Shown in pieces: positions 3,477 through 12,771 of a DNA stretch of 22,416 bases. Within the stretch, counting starts at the first letter, position 1; each line of letters begins with the position of its first letter. Source of the stretch: a virus; IMG/VR virus record IMGVR_UViG_3300025671_000593, positions 1 to 22,416 of that record; one strand, given 5' to 3'. The position numbers and the translations under genes are program-made. A model generated the notes under the pieces. It was not told the DNA's origin. It did no database searches and saw only the letters and a list, made by a program, of their open reading frames with translations.

Positions 3477-3501
3477 TGGACAAAACTAGAGAGGTTCATA
3501 T

Positions 3502-3648
3502 ATGGATACCGATAAATGGAAGAGCGTCCTCGTGCCGATTGAGGTCTACAAAGAGATCAAAGCGCTTGCACAGTCCGAAGGCCGCACGATCAGCGGACAA
3601 CTGCGGATAATTTTTGAAAATTACAAGCGTGAGAAAGAAAACGCTTGA
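3502..3648 (+). CDS. ribbon-helix-helix (CopG/Arc-like) DNA-binding protein
   Basis: 48 aa, start ATG 3502 behind GAGAGG. The sequence reads as one RHH unit: a beta strand (SVLVPIEVY), helix 1 (KEIKALAQSEGR), a turn, and helix 2 (TISGQLRIIFENYK). RHH proteins dimerise and insert the paired strand into the major groove of short inverted or direct repeats. This is the clearest transcription-factor candidate in the window. A TCGCATA element lies in its own promoter spacer, and the same element recurs before many other genes, so autoregulation plus control of a phage regulon is a reasonable inference. Binding is not demonstrated. Confidence 0.85.
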   Translation: MDTDKWKSVLVPIEVYKEIKALAQSEGRTISGQLRIIFENYKREKENA

Positions 3649-3671
3649 CCTGTCGCATAATATCATATACT
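3645..3671 (+). promoter_or_regulatory. candidate promoter with TCGCATA in the spacer
   Basis: TTGACC (3645-3650) and TATACT (3666-3671) are separated by a short 15-base spacer that contains TCGCATA (3653-3659). It overlaps the stop of the RHH gene and would drive the 79-aa gene at 3730. The short spacer lowers confidence in basal activity and could mean that activation is needed. Confidence 0.45.
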
Positions 3672-3700
3672 CTGGGCCTACCTCATAAAAGATTTGGAAG

Positions 3701-3728
3701 CGCCCTGAAGTTTACTTTGGGGCGTTTT
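3701..3728 (+). promoter_or_regulatory. leader hairpin with T-tract abutting a start codon (attenuator-like)
   Basis: CGCCCTGAAG (3701-3710) pairs with CTTTGGGGCG (3715-3724), using two wobble pairs and a TTTA loop. TTTT follows, and the ATG of the next gene comes one base later, at 3730. The only Shine-Dalgarno-like bases (GGGG, 3719-3722) lie in the 3' arm. It could act as an attenuator or hide the ribosome site. Confidence 0.55.
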
Positions 3729-3729
3729 C

Positions 3730-3969
3730 ATGTCTGACAAAGACGATTACATAATCGCGTTGAAAGAAACCAACAGTTTAATAGACGAATTAATTGACGC
3801 CGAACTGAACGCAGGGGCCGCGTACACAGGTATACTGACCGCGGCCCTGTTCCGTCTTTTAAAGGGAAGCCCCGACAAACAAGACGTCTTGGGCATTTTA
3901 GGTGCCGCAATGGCGTCCGCCGCGGCACATGTAGAGATGGAACAATCTATTTTATCAGATATTCACTAA
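3730..3969 (+). CDS. hypothetical 79-aa helical phage protein
   Basis: 79 aa and not recognised. Composition is acidic and alanine-rich: an N-terminal helix (KDDYIIALKETNSLIDELIDAEL), then a more hydrophobic middle (AGAAYTGILTAALFRLLKG), then LGILGAAMASAAAHVEMEQ. Two amphipathic helices seem more likely than membrane spans, because the hydrophobic runs are short and broken by charges. It stands alone between two promoter-like regions. Its start sits directly after a terminator-like hairpin that contains its only Shine-Dalgarno-like bases, so expression may be conditional. Confidence 0.7.
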   Translation: MSDKDDYIIALKETNSLIDELIDAELNAGAAYTGILTAALFRLLKGSPDKQDVLGILGAAMASAAAHVEMEQSILSDIH

Positions 3970-3974
3970 TAGTA

Positions 3975-4004
3975 TTGACATTATCTTATAGCATCGCATA
4001 TACT
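3975..4004 (+). promoter_or_regulatory. sigma70-type promoter overlapping a TCGCATA element
   Basis: TTGACA (3975-3980), an 18-base spacer and TATACT (3999-4004). TCGCATA (3994-4000) overlaps the -10 box, so a bound regulator should block polymerase. A clear AAAGGAG ribosome site and ATG 4038 follow. No terminator is seen before the repeat array, so this transcript probably runs through 4599-5290. Confidence 0.6.
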
Positions 4005-4037
4005 CCTTTACACTAACTTCGCAAAAGGAGAACTTAA

Positions 4038-4598
4038 ATGCGTAATGTAAGAGTACACTTCGAAGGTATCGCACCTTATAGTCAATCTAAAATGCATGAA
4101 GAGCCCAAGCTGCCAAAAGAAACAGCCGACGCTTACGAAACCAGAACATGGCGTTCAAAATGCACCGTCGATAAAGATGGAAACATCATCATCCCCGCTA
4201 TGGCAATTAAGTTTAGTCTGTCTGCCGCCGCTAAAAAACTCGGCACACAAATTCCGGGCCGCGGCAAATCTACCTACACCAAATATTTTGAAGCCGACGT
4301 CGTCCCACTGAACGATCCAAAGCTGGATGTCAAACAAGCCGACGTCCGCGGCGAACGGCTCAACGTCAATGCTGACGGTGTACGCGGATCCGGTAAGCGC
4401 GTATGGCGAACCTTCCCCGTCGTTGACACAGGATATAAATCCTACATCGACTTTATGATTATGGATGACACAATTACAAAAGACGTTTTTGTAGATGTCT
4501 TCACCGCCGCAGGTTCTGGTATTGGCATTGGACGTTTCCGCCCAGAAAAAGGCGGCACTAACGGACGTTTCCGCCCAGTTAAATTCGAATGGTCATAA
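4038..4598 (+). CDS. conserved phage protein of unknown function with glycine-rich C-terminus
   Basis: 186 aa, with a strong ribosome site (AAAGGAG). The layout is one I recognise from many unrelated phages without a known function: GIAPYSQSK near residue 10, ETRTWRSKCTVDKDGNIIIP, KLGTQIPGRGKSTYTKYFEA, ADGVRGSGKRVWRTFP, and C-terminal GSGIGIGRFRPEKGG then NGRFRP. The repeated GRFRP and surrounding glycines resemble the glycine-rich loops of RAMP/Cas7-fold RNA-binding proteins. That resemblance is only by eye and I hold it at low confidence. It is the gene immediately upstream of the stop-free repeat array and has no terminator, so the two are probably co-transcribed. Confidence 0.75.
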   Translation: MRNVRVHFEGIAPYSQSKMHEEPKLPKETADAYETRTWRSKCTVDKDGNIIIPAMAIKFSLSAAAKKLGTQIPGRGKSTYTKYFEADVVPLNDPKLDVKQADVRGERLNVNADGVRGSGKRVWRTFPVVDTGYKSYIDFMIMDDTITKDVFVDVFTAAGSGIGIGRFRPEKGGTNGRFRPVKFEWS

Positions 4599-5290
4599 TT
4601 TACACATCATCGCGTCGCGCCGTACTTCGGCGCTTCGCTGCGCTCCTCATCGCGCCGCAACGATTTGTTTGTTACTTCGCAATGTGCCGCTACGCTACTC
4701 CGCACCGCTCGCTGCATCGCTCCTCTGTGCGCCGCAACGATTTGTTTGTTACAACGCTACGAACGCCGCGACTTGGCTCCGCTCGCCTCCGCGTATCGCG
4801 CTGCGCCGCAATTCAACGCTACGATTTGTTATGTACAACGCAACGAACTCCGCTCCTCACCTCCCCTCTGTGCATCGTGTTGCCGCGCTCCACAAAGCGT
4901 CGCTCCGCAACTCGGCTCAACGATTTGTTTGTTACAACGCAACGAACGGCACTGCGCTCCTCGCCTCACCGCCACGCATTACGCCACTCTTCACTGCTCC
5001 GATCCGCAACTCAACTCAACGATTTGTTTGTTACAATGCAACTCAACGCAGCCCAATGCAACTCGTCTGGCCTCGACGCGCCGCGGCTCATTGCCTCTCT
5101 CCTCAACTCAACGATTTGTTTGTTACAACGCAACTCAACGAACTGCGGCTCGACGTACCGCCCCGAGTGGCTCCGCACCGCTCCGCGCCTCAACTCAACT
5201 CGACGATTTGTTTGTTACTTCGCTCCGCAACGCTCTTCAGCAATACGCATCGCTCCTCATCGTGCCTCGACACAACTCTGTGCAACGAAC
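4599..5290 (+). repeat. 692-base tandem-repeat array, non-coding by appearance and free of stop trinucleotides
   Basis: Seven copies of CGATTTGTTTGTTAC begin at 4661, 4738, 4822 (variant CGATTTGTTATGTAC), 4921, 5020, 5112 and 5204. The spacings are 77, 84, 99, 99, 92 and 92. Inner copies usually continue as AACGCAACGAAC or AACGCAACTCAACG; the two outermost copies have TTCGC instead. GTTTGTT can pair with AACGAAC around the loop ACAACGC, most cleanly in the copy at 4921 and, with a longer loop, at 5112. Between the cores are C-rich microrepeats such as CGCTCCGCAAC, CTCAACTCAACG and GCTCCTC. I read every line and found no TAA, TAG or TGA in any + frame from 4599 to 5290. The translations of all three frames are low-complexity and share nothing with each other, so I do not call a protein. 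Candidates are a structured RNA, an iteron-type origin, or a protein-binding array. No promoter or terminator is visible inside it. Confidence 0.85.
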
Positions 5291-5313
5291 TGAAACTCTA
5301 ACAAGGAAAACAA

Positions 5314-5718
5314 ATGTTCAAACGTTCGAAACAAACTTTGGAAATGTGTGACCTGTTCCGTAATGCAAACGGACACCTGAGTTACGCAACCATAGAAACG
5401 CACTTCGGAAAAACAATTAATGAACTGCGTCCCACAATAATCGCTGCAAAGCGATACCTCGAAAGAGACGAAAGCATCGTCTTCGAATGCATCAGAGGCG
5501 AAGGATACAAACGCCTCGACGATAGCGCAAAAGTGGATAGCCTCAAAACATTCACAAGACGCATCAGACGTACCGCTAACAATGGGCAACTCCGCGCACA
5601 TACCGTCGAAAAACGAGAACAACTCACCAATGACGATAGATTACGGCTCACGATCCGTGAAACCGCCTTCTACGCCATTCAATCGCAACTCCATGAAATC
5701 AACGATAAGGATAGATAA
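5314..5718 (+). CDS. phage protein with winged-helix-type N-terminal domain
   Basis: 134 aa, starting at ATG 5314 behind AAGGAAAAC. Residues 8-70 look like a winged helix: helix CDLFRNANG, then LSYATIETHFGKTINELRPTI, then AAKRYLERDES, then the wing IVFECIRGEGYKRLDD. The ending IRGEGYKRL matches the hairpin wing seen in many wHTH regulators. The C-terminal half is basic (KTFTRRIRRTANNGQLRAH) and helical. Likely a DNA-binding protein of the phage; the target is unknown. It follows the repeat array directly and would be translated from the same transcript if the upstream promoter reads through. It starts a run of four genes with adjacent or overlapping ends. Confidence 0.7.
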   Translation: MFKRSKQTLEMCDLFRNANGHLSYATIETHFGKTINELRPTIIAAKRYLERDESIVFECIRGEGYKRLDDSAKVDSLKTFTRRIRRTANNGQLRAHTVEKREQLTNDDRLRLTIRETAFYAIQSQLHEINDKDR

Positions 5719-5937
5719 ATGATTGATGATCGCATCTGCGTTTTCTACGTCGCGGACCGCGTCGAAGATATCGCAAAAGCCGCCAACCCAACCAAAAAGG
5801 CACAAGACTTTTTGCAAGAATTAAACCATAATATCGGTGTGGATGCGCGTAGGAAGCGCAACAACCCTCCTCCGCCGCCACAGAATGAAATAACTGCCCC
5901 GCGGAAACGGAGAGGAAGGCCAAAGAAAAATGGGTGA
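5719..5937 (+). CDS. small protein with C-terminal AT-hook motif
   Basis: 72 aa, beginning directly after the previous stop. Residues 1-45 are a mixed helical segment (ADRVEDIAKAANPTKKAQDFLQEL). There follows a basic patch (ARRKRNN), a run of five prolines at about 50-54, and a C-terminal PRKRRGRPKKNG. RGRP (65-68) flanked by Lys and Arg is the core of an AT-hook, which binds the minor groove of AT-rich DNA. Such a hook is usual in eukaryotic HMGA proteins and occasional in bacterial and phage nucleoid-type proteins. AT-rich targets exist nearby at 6290-6340 and 7557-7800. Function is inferred from the motif only. Confidence 0.7.
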   Translation: MIDDRICVFYVADRVEDIAKAANPTKKAQDFLQELNHNIGVDARRKRNNPPPPPQNEITAPRKRRGRPKKNG

Positions 5938-6118
5938 CGAACAACTCTCAACATTCCAGTCAGCGCACCTGCGCTGGCTGAAACAACAAGTAAATAACCT
6001 ACAAGACTTGCGATACACAAGCAAAGCACCTAATGACCTAGATCGACAACTCTTCGCCGCCCGCGAAGAACTCGACGACTACGTCAACCAATTGAGAGAG
6101 CATGGAATAAACATATGA
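5930..6118 (+). CDS. hypothetical 62-aa coiled-coil-like protein
   Basis: 62 aa, overlapping the AT-hook gene by eight bases. It has a plausible GGAAGG ribosome site upstream and an ATGA overlap with the next gene. Two helices are likely: LSTFQSAHLRWLKQQVNNLQDLRY and NDLDRQLFAAREELDDYVNQLREHG, with heptad-like leucine spacing. Not recognised. The tight coupling suggests it works with, or is made in step with, its neighbours. Confidence 0.65.
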   Translation: MGDEQLSTFQSAHLRWLKQQVNNLQDLRYTSKAPNDLDRQLFAAREELDDYVNQLREHGINI

Positions 6119-9219: not shown

Positions 9220-9954
9220 ATGTTAAAAACTGTTGAAATATCACGGGCAAAGAAAACCAAAGGAATAGCCGTAACATATCGGGCGGGCAAAAATGATATG
9301 TTTGGAACATGCCCCAGCACTTGCAAGCTTAACGATAGCGGCAAAGGTGCAAGCGAAATTGATCAAGAATATTTAGACGCCTTACTTGACGCCGTGCCGC
9401 GCAAGGGGGTTGCGTTCACTTATACGCATTTTAATTGGATTGATTGGTCGCGCAAATTAAAACGCGGTAAAACCGTTATCAATTATTCCGCGGACAACTT
9501 ACACGACGCTGCAATTGCGGCGGGCGCGGTTCCGACGGTTACCGTTGTTAATGAGGCGAAATGGCAAGGAAAAAAATCATTTTGTGTTGAACTTGAAATT
9601 GAATATGCGCGGGATGACGTTCCGAACGAAAAACATACCGTTGTGAGATGCCCTGCGGAATATCGCAATATATCTTGTGCCCAATGTGGAAACGGTGAAC
9701 CTTTTTGCGCAAGGCTAAAACGCGATTTTATTGTAGGATTTACCGCGCATGGTCCGAATAAGCGCAAGGCCGCGGATGAAAACGCGCAAGGCGGTTGCTA
9801 TGGTGCGCAAGGAAATTGTCGCATTTGGTGGACTGAAACAAGCGAAACGGTTCAAGATGAAACGGACGCGGAAAAACTAAAGCGCTTTGTTTCTGGTTTG
9901 CCGCCGCGTTCAATTATTCGCCATCATGTGGCGGGGGATATAGGCGAAAATTAA
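9220..9954 (+). CDS. cysteine-rich phage protein, possibly of the gp88/DUF7227 type
   Basis: 244 aa with a GAGGG ribosome site. Cysteines cluster in CPSTC near residue 31, later in VRCPAEYRNISCAQCGNGEPFC (about 148-169) and in GGCYGAQGNC near the C-terminus. Between them are FTYTHFNWIDWSRKL and VINYSADNL. The second cluster is followed by ARLKRDFIVGFTAHGPNKRKA. The pattern CPSTC, then C-x5-C-x2-C and a final R...VGF..HG resembles phage proteins annotated as gene product 88 or DUF7227, which may bind an iron-sulfur cluster or zinc. The family name is my recollection and uncertain; the cysteine pattern is directly visible. Confidence 0.75.
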   Translation: MLKTVEISRAKKTKGIAVTYRAGKNDMFGTCPSTCKLNDSGKGASEIDQEYLDALLDAVPRKGVAFTYTHFNWIDWSRKLKRGKTVINYSADNLHDAAIAAGAVPTVTVVNEAKWQGKKSFCVELEIEYARDDVPNEKHTVVRCPAEYRNISCAQCGNGEPFCARLKRDFIVGFTAHGPNKRKAADENAQGGCYGAQGNCRIWWTETSETVQDETDAEKLKRFVSGLPPRSIIRHHVAGDIGEN

Positions 9955-9965
9955 AGCTTGCATAA

Positions 9966-9972
9966 TATGCGA
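9966..9972. promoter_or_regulatory. TATGCGA element before the DUF932 gene
   Basis: TATGCGA sits in an AT-rich stretch. TTGCAT (9958-9963) and GAGAAT (9981-9986) are 17 bases apart and could be weak promoter boxes. Confidence 0.4.
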
Positions 9973-9986
9973 TAATATAAGAGAAT

Positions 9987-10012
9987 AGGGGCGGGCAATT
10001 CCGCCCTTTTTT
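9987..10012 (+). terminator. GC hairpin with T-tract in the leader of the DUF932 gene
   Basis: GGGCGG (9989-9994) pairs with CCGCCC (10001-10006), extended by the flanking AG and TT. The loop is GCAATT and six T follow. The ATGAGGT ribosome site comes directly after. It may end the upstream gene or attenuate the downstream one. Confidence 0.75.
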
Positions 10013-10024
10013 ATGAGGTTAAAA

Positions 10025-11140
10025 ATGTTGAACTTGGAAAACGAAACTGGAACGCTTCAAAAGCTTTTGCAAACTGTACTGGAACAAAAAAACAGAAAAG
10101 AAGACTTTGTGACATCAACAGTGAACTTGCAAAAAACAACGGACGCGGACGGAAACGCGAAAATCGTTATTGAAGCAAGGGGCGGGGAACCAACCCGCAT
10201 TTTGAACATTAATTCCCACGCGCAAGGGCAGATTGCCGCCGCCGCCGAAATTGATACAAGGACGGCCCGCCGGTTGCAGGAAAATTATCCGGTCGAATAT
10301 GACGCCCTTATAAATGCGCGTTGGCAGCGCGAACCGGCCAACCGCATGGTCCGGACCTTTTTAGACGGTGACGAAACGTCCGGAACGGCGCGGGCGTTTG
10401 TTTCTGACAAATTCAAAACTTTTGACAATGCGGACCTTTTAGAAGCGGCATTGCCTCAATTGATTGAAAGCGATGCGCAATGGAAAATCGTTAATTCGAC
10501 CGTGACCGAAAAGCGCTTGTATATGCGGTTAAAAAGCGAAGTCCAAACCGGCGAGGCCGCGGTTGGGGATCATATGGCAAACGGGATTGGCTTTTCTAAT
10601 TCAGAAGTTGGGGCGGGTTCCGTAAACGTTTACCAAGTTTATTGGACGCTGGCTTGTTTGAACGGTATGCAAACCGAAAACAGAACGCGTTCAAGTCATA
10701 TAACCAGCGCACGGGATAGCGCCGACTATGGACTTTTGAGCAATGAGGCAAAAGACGCGGACAATAAAGCGCTTGCACTTAAATTGCGCGACTTGGCGGG
10801 CGCATATGCCAGCCGTGAAAGCTTTGACCAAATTCTCGACAAAATGCGGGCCGCGCACGGCGATGTAGTAGAGGGCGAATTTACAGAAATTCCGGAGCGC
10901 GTCGGATCAATCTTGAAATTGACGAAAAAAGAAAATTCCGACGTCCTAAACGGTTTGATGCAAACCCTGCGTCAAGATGGATATAACAACGCGGCGCAAC
11001 CGATCACACGTGCAACGCTGGTCAATGCCTTGACGGCGGTTGGTAATACTTGCGACGCGGATGAAGCGGACATGTGGCAACAGCGGGGCGGAAAGCTTTT
11101 GAATTTATCGGACCGTGAGTGGCAGCGCATTGCCGCATAA
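10025..11140 (+). CDS. DUF932 domain protein
   Basis: 371 aa. I start at ATG 10025 because an in-frame ATG at 10013 lies inside the GAGGT ribosome site. Recognisable DUF932 features are a middle region with RTFLDGDETSGTARAFVSDKFKTFDNADLLEAALP, then KRLYMRLKSE, and VGDHMANGIGFSNSEVGAGSVNVYQVYW, followed by CLNGM. This family is common on phages and plasmids, but its biochemical role is unknown. The C-terminal third (KKENSDVLNGLMQTLRQDGY) is helical. It is the largest gene between the two terminase subunits and has its own hairpin leader. Confidence 0.8.
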   Translation: MLNLENETGTLQKLLQTVLEQKNRKEDFVTSTVNLQKTTDADGNAKIVIEARGGEPTRILNINSHAQGQIAAAAEIDTRTARRLQENYPVEYDALINARWQREPANRMVRTFLDGDETSGTARAFVSDKFKTFDNADLLEAALPQLIESDAQWKIVNSTVTEKRLYMRLKSEVQTGEAAVGDHMANGIGFSNSEVGAGSVNVYQVYWTLACLNGMQTENRTRSSHITSARDSADYGLLSNEAKDADNKALALKLRDLAGAYASRESFDQILDKMRAAHGDVVEGEFTEIPERVGSILKLTKKENSDVLNGLMQTLRQDGYNNAAQPITRATLVNALTAVGNTCDADEADMWQQRGGKLLNLSDREWQRIAA

Positions 11141-12309: not shown

Positions 12310-12340
12310 TTTAACCGCGAATTGATCCCAATTGATAACT

Positions 12341-12365
12341 GGCCCGCCTTTGCGCGGGCCTTTTT
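12341..12365 (+). terminator. rho-independent terminator
   Basis: GGCCCGC (12341-12347) pairs with GCGGGCC (12354-12360) around CTTTGC, followed by TTTTT. It isolates the small-gene region from the GC-rich island. Confidence 0.85.
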
Positions 12366-12740
12366 ATTTGTGTTTAAGACTTGCGCCCGTCCTCCGCCTT
12401 CTTTGCGCCTTAAACCTACCGGCGGGATCCGCGGGCGGTGGGGATCGGTTCGAACCGCCCAGTTCGCGGCCCAAACCCACCGGCAGCCGGTGCGGTTCGC
12501 GCTGCAGTTTGGCGGGGATCCGCGGCCCGCGCTGGTCGTCGCCAGATCCACCGGCGGGCGTTCGCGGCCCGCGTTTGATGTCACCGGCAACGCTGGTTTG
12601 CAAACATCGCGCAGCCGCCGGATGTCGGCGATCCGGATCGGGTCCCCCGAATATCGGGTCAAAAACCGACATTTTCGCGCCAAAATCCGCCGTTTTCGCG
12701 CCGCGGCCCCGTGGCGAGCCCACGGGTGCATGGGCCATGT
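12366..12740. other. GC-rich, palindrome-rich non-coding island before terL
   Basis: About 375 bases, far richer in G+C than the flanks (46 of 60 bases in 12481-12540). Perfect palindromes include CGGTTCGAACCG (12446-12457), GTTTGCAAAC (12596-12605) and CGATCCGGATCG (12629-12640). Repeated words include a GGCGGGATCCGCGG form at 12421-12434 and 12511-12525, TTCGCGGCCC at 12463 and 12561, and TTTTCGCGCC at 12672 and 12693. Long frames are open on both strands, but they give arginine- and proline-rich translations and run through the terminator, so no gene is called. It could be a cos or pac site, an origin, or sequence acquired from a GC-rich source. Confidence 0.7.
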
Positions 12741-12742
12741 TT

Positions 12743-12771
12743 TTGACAAATAATCATGTAGAAAATAATAT
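12743..12771 (+). promoter_or_regulatory. sigma70-type promoter for the packaging and head module
   Basis: A perfect TTGACA (12743-12748), a 17-base spacer and TAATAT (12766-12771), at the switch from the GC-rich island to AT-rich DNA. The predicted leader contains TCGCATA (12796-12802) and GGGGCCCC (12803-12810) just before the terL start. Confidence 0.65.

Follow-up and report, generated by a model that had tools for sequence, protein, structure and literature searches.

A stop-free repeat block between two phage genes, most likely an array of VIPR guides whose scaffold differs from the published one

VIPR (Viral Interference Programmable Repeat), described in 2026, is guided by RNA and reads its targets in a gapped code; it has been proposed as the ancestor of the RAMP proteins of CRISPR (PMC13142463). 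Its parts are the protein Vipr, the accessory protein Vap, and vrRNAs that consist of 9-16 YNNGG pentamers followed by an invariant 3' tail; the NN pairs read DNA, skipping one nucleotide each time, at the wobble base (PMC13142463). Seven types share the consensus GGY/NN "or a related consensus", and Vipr itself, about 20 kD in size, is recognized as a RAMP homologue with one RRM and a G-loop (PMC13142463). The systems of the Escherichia phage SUSP1 and of a Pseudomonas fulva prophage are of type II (PMC13142463).

The window analysed here, the 22,416 nt of IMG/VR virus record IMGVR_UViG_3300025671_000593, from a marine phage, contains a block of 692 nt (4599-5290) with no TAA, TAG, or TGA on its + strand, which a preliminary description took for a noncoding RNA or a binding array. 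That was right in kind. The specific roles it offered (a large structured phage RNA, a sponge, or an origin) found no support, and a VIPR guide array was not among them. By sequence comparison the block is very probably just that, a vrRNA array of about eight guides on a variant scaffold, and the order vipr, guide array, vap most likely marks a phage VIPR locus (Table 1). The published anatomy is recognizable in a vipr gene, an adjoining vap gene, tracts with hypervariable NN, and, in the guides of relatives, the skip of one nucleotide at the wobble position. It is the Vipr and Vap neighbours together with the decoded targets that point to an RNA-guided VIPR system.

Table 1. Coordinates of the locus in the window and of HGG-motif loci in other records
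Feature	Position	Strand	Basis
Sigma-70-like promoter TTGACA-18-TATACT ahead of vipr	3975..4004	+	11/12 consensus; pattern match only
vipr, 186-aa predicted RAMP-family (Cas7/Csm3-like) protein, C-terminal G-loop GIGIGRFRPEKGGTNGRF	4038..4598	+	PHROG, profile, fold
Probable guide (vrRNA) array	4599..5302	+	8 NN-YKY pentamer tracts, 7 core/tail repeats between
Guide tract 1, conserved leader tract, holds GCGCCGTACTTCGGCGC hairpin	4599..4660	+	pentamer parse; z -3.2
Core/tail 1	4661..4675	+	core scan
Guide tract 2	4676..4737	+	pentamer parse
Core/tail 2	4738..4752	+	core scan
Guide tract 3, decoded as A E G R A R I/M A A	4753..4821	+	pentamer parse; 13 viral matches, no target claimed
Core/tail 3, variant CGATTTGTTATGTAC	4822..4836	+	core scan
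Guide tract 4, decoded on the reverse strand as P L/F E T L/F E R T I/M Q/H G V E E	4837..4920	+	pentamer parse
Core/tail 4	4921..4935	+	core scan
Guide tract 5	4936..5019	+	pentamer parse
Core/tail 5	5020..5034	+	core scan
Guide tract 6, with variants common to L045, L037, L065, L015, L007	5035..5111	+	comparison with relatives
Core/tail 6	5112..5126	+	core scan
Guide tract 7	5127..5203	+	pentamer parse
Core/tail 7	5204..5218	+	core scan
Guide tract 8 (last)	5219..5285	+	pentamer parse
Terminal element CGAACTGAAACTCTAAC, ends stop-free run	5286..5302	+	sequence; kept in relatives
vap, Vap1-family protein of 134 aa, predicted to bind DNA by a winged helix	5314..5718	+	phrog_5926; winged-helix label from sequence inspection
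HGG-motif loci	L170 about 10560-10800; L167 2332-2832; L173 about 350-600; 80 loci L187-L266		HGG motif; phrog_6177

The 186-aa protein encoded upstream of the array falls in phrog_4652 (E 3.4e-8, and 3.8e-12 for its homologue in L112), the family to which the Vipr of SUSP1 also belongs (1.4e-96). The link to Vipr runs through profiles, a search of the PDB with the single window sequence having given no match. A bridged profile (A4), made from the window clade and the Vipr homologues of phages DSL-LC04 and LESphi2 with SUSP1 left out, reached the SUSP1 Vipr (PDB 36pp_D) over nearly its whole length with an E-value of 5.6e-23; a profile from the window clade only reached just 0.7. The G-loop, GIGIGRFRPEKGGTNGRF, is conserved. 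When an AlphaFold model of the protein (pLDDT 73, pTM 0.72, from an alignment of 13 rows) was compared using Foldseek and VIA-align, the matches listed were CRISPR RAMPs almost throughout, the best being Csm3 8do6_E (VIA Z 9.6, rmsd 4.7, 154 residues). With a fold library whose entries end at April 2026, nothing can be read into the lack of the SUSP1 Vipr chain among those matches. Family, profile, and predicted structure agree in identifying the protein as Vipr, with a predicted Csm3/Cas7-like RAMP fold.

Downstream of the array, the 134-aa protein matches phrog_5926 weakly (E 0.021) and its homologue in the L112 clade does so at 1.3e-5. That family also takes in Vap1 of SUSP1 (1.1e-75) and the LESphi2 protein (4e-31), and on this membership the 134-aa protein is identified as a Vap1 homologue, a direct hhalign comparison with SUSP1 Vap1 not being significant. 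No cas1, cas2, or other cas gene is found among the annotated genes of the window. The assigned genes of the window run on the + strand, as does the only promoter-like match within 3500-6000, the one ahead of vipr. By eye, a similar promoter-like sequence (TTGACC...TATACT) can be seen at 3640-3670, ahead of a 79-aa gene that begins at 3730.

The seven core copies at intervals of 77-99 nt, counted in the preliminary description, are six exact copies of CGATTTGTTTGTTAC and the one variant, CGATTTGTTATGTAC, with spacings of 77, 84, 99, 99, 92, and 92 nt. The pairs 77/84 and 92/99, which it had noted to differ by seven, do so because tracts 3-5 carry an extra AACGAAC-type segment at their 5' ends. 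The hairpin GTTTGTT/AACGAAC that it assigned to the inner copies stands for the units with that segment and fails for all others: in units 3-5, the 5' AACGAAC can pair with the GTTTGTT of the unit's own 3' core, making a panhandle possible in some units. As to a large structured RNA, units 2-7 fold no more stably than their shuffles (z -0.2 to 1.0), and it is unit 1, with its GCGCCGTACTTCGGCGC hairpin, that is more structured (z -3.2). A conserved hairpin was sought and not found in the invariant 15-nt element that follows each tract. No Rfam family matched the array, hence no hammerhead.

The element that ends the array, CGAACTGAAACTCTAAC, is possibly a degenerate last repeat. In six relatives (L031, L032, L071, L082, L038, and L015) the 3' end of the array is tgaAACTtaaCtag, which closes all three frames within 14 nt, and the end of the window's array has two of those three stops. 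At an altered core within the array of L038 there is also an inverted repeat, TTGATCATTTTGTTAACGTCAACAAAATGATC (about 3740-3781), that resembles a small insertion.

The spacers between the cores have a strict period of five nucleotides, NN-Y-K-Y, that is, two hypervariable bases and a scaffold of pyrimidine, keto base, and pyrimidine, mostly C-G/T-C. The preliminary description noticed C-rich microrepeats here and missed the strict periodicity of C. With pentamers anchored on the following core and 43 in-phase tracts taken from the window and its relatives, the entropies at positions 1 and 2 are 1.97 and 1.98 bits out of a possible 2, while position 3 is C in 86% and T in 10%, position 5 is C in 83% and T in 12% (each of these two a pyrimidine in about 95%), and position 4 is G in 56% and T in 36% (one or the other in about 92%). 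The autocorrelation of C is 0.47, 0.39, and 0.31 at lags of 5, 10, and 15, and about 0 in the neighbouring gene. Most tracts of the window have about 12-16 pentamers, those of relatives 9-21. Among 84 unique units, lengths modulo 5 are mostly 2 (46/84), the remainder mainly 4 or 3, and lengths modulo 3 spread over all the frames (24/28/32). Between homologous tracts, NN did not show a lower rate of substitution than the scaffold. Runs of three or more NNGGY pentamers are absent from both strands of the window's array, so that a locus with the anatomy of VIPR must differ in its scaffold, YKY/NN replacing the published GGY/NN.

The scaffold bears directly on the lack of stops. The run of 692 nt is by far the longest in the window, the next being 168 nt on the + strand and 183 nt on the - strand. 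When both strands of the array were examined, only the + strand was free of stops, because only this strand is C-rich in the relevant phase. With C at positions 3 and 5, every trinucleotide contains a C, and a stop is impossible. The figure of about 32 expected stops given earlier was too high; the array's own dinucleotides predict about 11, and a model of composition by 5-nt phase, run on 423 nt of tract in six tracts, predicts about 5, with P(0)=0.006. Most of the absence of stops is a by-product of the C-rich 5-nt guide scaffold. After phase-matched permutation a residual deficit remains in nonhomologous tracts (7 stops seen against 17.5 expected, 2.5-fold), and across all arrays stops within tracts are about 2- to 3-fold rarer than such permutations predict.

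A residual deficit of this kind, with 692 nt open in three frames and with the arrays of relatives ending in stops in three frames, is what a translated low-complexity repeat protein might leave, or a sequence kept deliberately stop-free and read in three frames. That reading is highly improbable: unit lengths occupy all residues modulo 3, ruling out one single reading frame, spacers are exchanged between phages regardless of frame, stop trinucleotides do occur within tracts of relatives, and control words deviate from the phase-matched permutation as much as stops do. Selection for freedom from stops was rejected as well, since the deficit remains but the control words deviate alike. The preliminary description had held that no single protein explains the absence of stops, and the units do run over three frames, in a block that is reshuffled between phages.

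For the comparison with related phages that it had proposed, IMG/VR was scanned for the exact core, which turned up in 82 stretches of DNA; in about 17 of these it forms multi-copy arrays. With the two flanking proteins as queries, 22 related contigs were found to carry arrays. Where a contig reaches far enough, the 186-aa gene lies upstream and the 134-aa gene downstream. Full-length copies of Vipr in the main clade are 93-100% identical to the window's (one partial copy, 91%), and the 134-aa protein is 86-100% identical, except for L062 at 62%. In a second clade (L112-L116) Vipr is 66% identical, with the same pentamers and the same core. Between near-identical flanks the guides are reshuffled, the same spacer being found at differing positions in different phages.

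An array so modular and fast-changing might be a functionless tandem-repeat expansion. There is very little probability in this, given that contigs spanning the locus, those of the clade with 66% identical Vipr included, retain the array between this pair of genes, and that the scaffold is constrained and guides match targets. Another reading is a replication origin, or an array for protein binding, in which the iterons lie far apart and the core is the site for the downstream winged-helix protein. The core is invariant and repeated, AT-rich amid GC-rich surroundings, and adjoined by a gene for a DNA-binding protein, all as such a reading would have it. However, spacing across arrays is not constant, ranging from 58 to 124 nt instead of the approximate helical turn by an initiator gene that characterizes iterons, and such a reading leaves unexplained the strict NN/YKY pentamers, an NN entropy at its maximum, spacers that can be interchanged, and the matches to targets. 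We consider it very unlikely.

What the guides read can be asked by applying the published VIPR rule, read NN and skip one base. One guide, common to the relatives L031 and L032, has the NN series AA CT CA GG GG CT AG AC GG CC CG AC GC AA and decodes to K/N-L-H-G-G-L-S-T-G-P-R-T-A-K/N. A scan of viral sequences with 18 fixed bases of this guide gave five matches, four of the five in frame in a conserved motif, HGGxSTGPRTAEG. When its core of 12 NN (24 bases) was used against 257 Gb of genomes, a single match was obtained, in L173, again at the HGG motif. The site lies inside KLHGGLSTGPRTAK, where both flanking NN match too, giving 14/14 dinucleotides in codon phase. A variant of the guide in L015, with TT in place of CT, matches 12/12 in L170, where the motif reads RFHGG. 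In another genome, L333, a TTG allele gives a match of 11/12. In a test of 96 guides against 85 HGG loci at skips of 0-3, runs of 14, 14, and 12 appeared at a skip of 1 only and at the HGG motif only, and a further run, of 8, also fell at the motif. The longest runs were 7 for shuffled guides and 8 for other skips. Contiguous readings and readings with skips of 2 or 3 nt, no better than shuffled guides, were set aside.

The motif is spelled by further guides of relatives. Tract 9 of L060 spells HGGxSTGPK (8/8, but it needs one pentamer of 4 nt), tract 1 of L062 spells the HGG motif at 7/8, tract 8 of L114 decodes GPRTAEGK in a run of 8, and tract 1 of L112 matches the motif on the other strand at 8/11. 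The target protein belongs to phrog_6177. It is small (CxxxTRxGxPC..RCxxHGGxSTGPRTAEG) and widespread in phages, and in L170 its gene adjoins one that resembles a small terminase. Scans of other guides with 16-18 fixed bases gave 3 to 45 matches (four guides were scanned in all), and scaling these counts down by the extra fixed bases leads to an estimate of about 0.01-0.03 chance matches when 24 bases are fixed and the genome collection is scanned, with the flanking NN and the coincidence of family still to be taken into account. The HGG gene is quite probably a true target of the relatives' guides.

All guides that decode to the HGG motif are in relatives and none is in the window, and this weighs somewhat against the VIPR reading. 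The window's own guides, which would be read by the same rule, yielded no target in scans of viral contigs, HGG loci, target and sister records, and the genomes of one order. The core of tract 6 gave scattered matches of generic coding sequence in the scan of viral contigs, as did a tract labelled U_C; tract 3 gave 13 matches, likewise generic. Examples from the three scans are KKVAEAGI and AEGRARIAA. Such matches in three scans imply that codon-like guides match by chance at 16-18 fixed bases, and so no target is claimed for these guides. Tract 3 was considered as a guide to the neighbourhood of the motif, since AEGRAR follows HGGxSTGPRT in L171, but 0/13 of its matches proved to be the HGG gene. 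Tract 5 had a single match, with 3 mismatches, in 50 target and sister records, and tract 4 none in 298 genomes of one order. Nothing was found by tblastn with a padded decoded peptide, and decoded peptides had no match in PHROGs, where the positive control was likewise without a match.

If the locus is a VIPR locus, the array is probably cotranscribed with vipr from the promoter ahead of it, and cleavage of the transcript, which may fall in the U-rich cores, would release some eight guide RNAs, each roughly 75-100 nt long and made of a pentamer tract with the invariant core as its 3' tail. The RNA would be coated by Vipr, each subunit taking one pentamer, holding its YKY as the scaffold, and leaving the two N bases free. 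These N pairs would be matched to double-stranded DNA in the pattern NN-skip-NN-skip, the wobble base being the one skipped. In this way genes of competing phages or mobile elements may be silenced, with Vap as a proposed DNA-binding accessory. Silencing, suggested by analogy, is preferred over cleavage because the published system silences and no recognized nuclease gene stands beside the array.

The guide strand is likely the sense (+) strand: the genes run on +, the sole promoter-like match is on +, and on this strand a tract is followed by an invariant element, as in SUSP1. A VIPR locus whose functional guide is instead an antisense RNA, with GMG/NN pentamers and a promoter inside or beyond vap, is a lesser possibility and on balance unlikely. 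The antisense strand, reading R-M-R/NN, would keep the G-rich look of GGY/NN, and the decoding of targets is identical for either strand. Against it, besides the direction of the genes and of the promoter-like match, are the pentamers of SUSP1, DSL-LC04, and LESphi2, which share the strand of vipr (in NNGGY runs 9-11 pentamers long), and the order of tract then core on +, like the tract then tail of SUSP1.

Compared with the VIPR systems of SUSP1 and P. fulva, the locus is alike in its tandem 5-nt guides with hypervariable NN, in the order of tract and invariant 3' element, and, so far as the guides of relatives tell, in the skip of one nucleotide at the wobble base and in targets on mobile elements; its vipr and vap share phrog_4652 and phrog_5926 with those of SUSP1. 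It differs in several respects, the first two of which count against the VIPR reading: the scaffold is YKY in place of GGY, with no NNGGY run on either strand; the tail is a short U-rich core and not a pseudoknotted tail (a structured tail like that of SUSP1 was looked for in the array and not found); and the guides form one CRISPR-like array, with up to 9-10 repeats, between vipr and vap. The phage DSL-LC04 and Pseudomonas phage LESphi2 have Vipr homologues 31% and 24% identical to the window's, and the TerL of DSL-LC04 is 59% identical, but in both phages the guide tracts, upstream of vipr on the gene strand, are ordinary NNGGY runs 9-10 pentamers long. In L267 (DSL-LC04; 9930-10870) and L271 (LESphi2; 4403-5945) the annotation of these Vipr homologues reads HTH regulator or hypothetical protein.

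With Class 1 CRISPR-Cas the locus shares the RAMP fold (the Csm3/Cas7 backbone) and a repeat-separated array. It differs in that the repeats are of 15 nt, the setting is viral, and no cas genes are recognized nearby. A contiguous match of spacer to protospacer (skip 0) did not rise above shuffles in about 0.84, 0.48, and 1.1 Mb, and a Class 1 array was rejected for want of contiguous pairing and of a cas gene set. TIGR-Tas arrays (PMC12045711) are likewise tandem interspaced guide RNAs in phages; in a broad comparison, the locus is set apart by its RAMP protein and by an NN/YKY code that fits VIPR.

There is perhaps an even chance that the locus represents a marine-phage subtype of VIPR, in which YKY has come to replace GGY in the scaffold through drift, the rule of NN and skip-one being kept, and in which CRISPR-like, repeat-separated arrays are reassorted between sister phages, several guides converging on the HGG-motif gene of rival elements. 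The distinction from the published types rests on their GGY/NN consensus, to which the paper adds "or a related consensus" (PMC13142463). If the subtype is real, recognition of the scaffold and the code for the target would evolve independently: a scaffold triplet that differs while the target rule holds sets the part gripped by the protein apart from the part that does the reading. A search for NNGGY only would miss a clade with a YKY scaffold. Sister phages with near-identical proteins and reshuffled guides also open the gain, loss, and exchange of guides to direct study, and the decoded targets point to rivals that can be put to the test and to a target gene that is conserved, HGG/phrog_6177.

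Elsewhere in the window, a GC-rich region (12370-12745, about 61%) with no recognized gene and no match among phage records lies between terL (12813) and a hairpin that resembles a terminator (about 12340-12365). It has stop-free runs of about 165 nt, two on + and one on -, and a repeat in two copies, GGCGGG..CGCGGCCCGCG, with a change in the sign of GC skew nearby.
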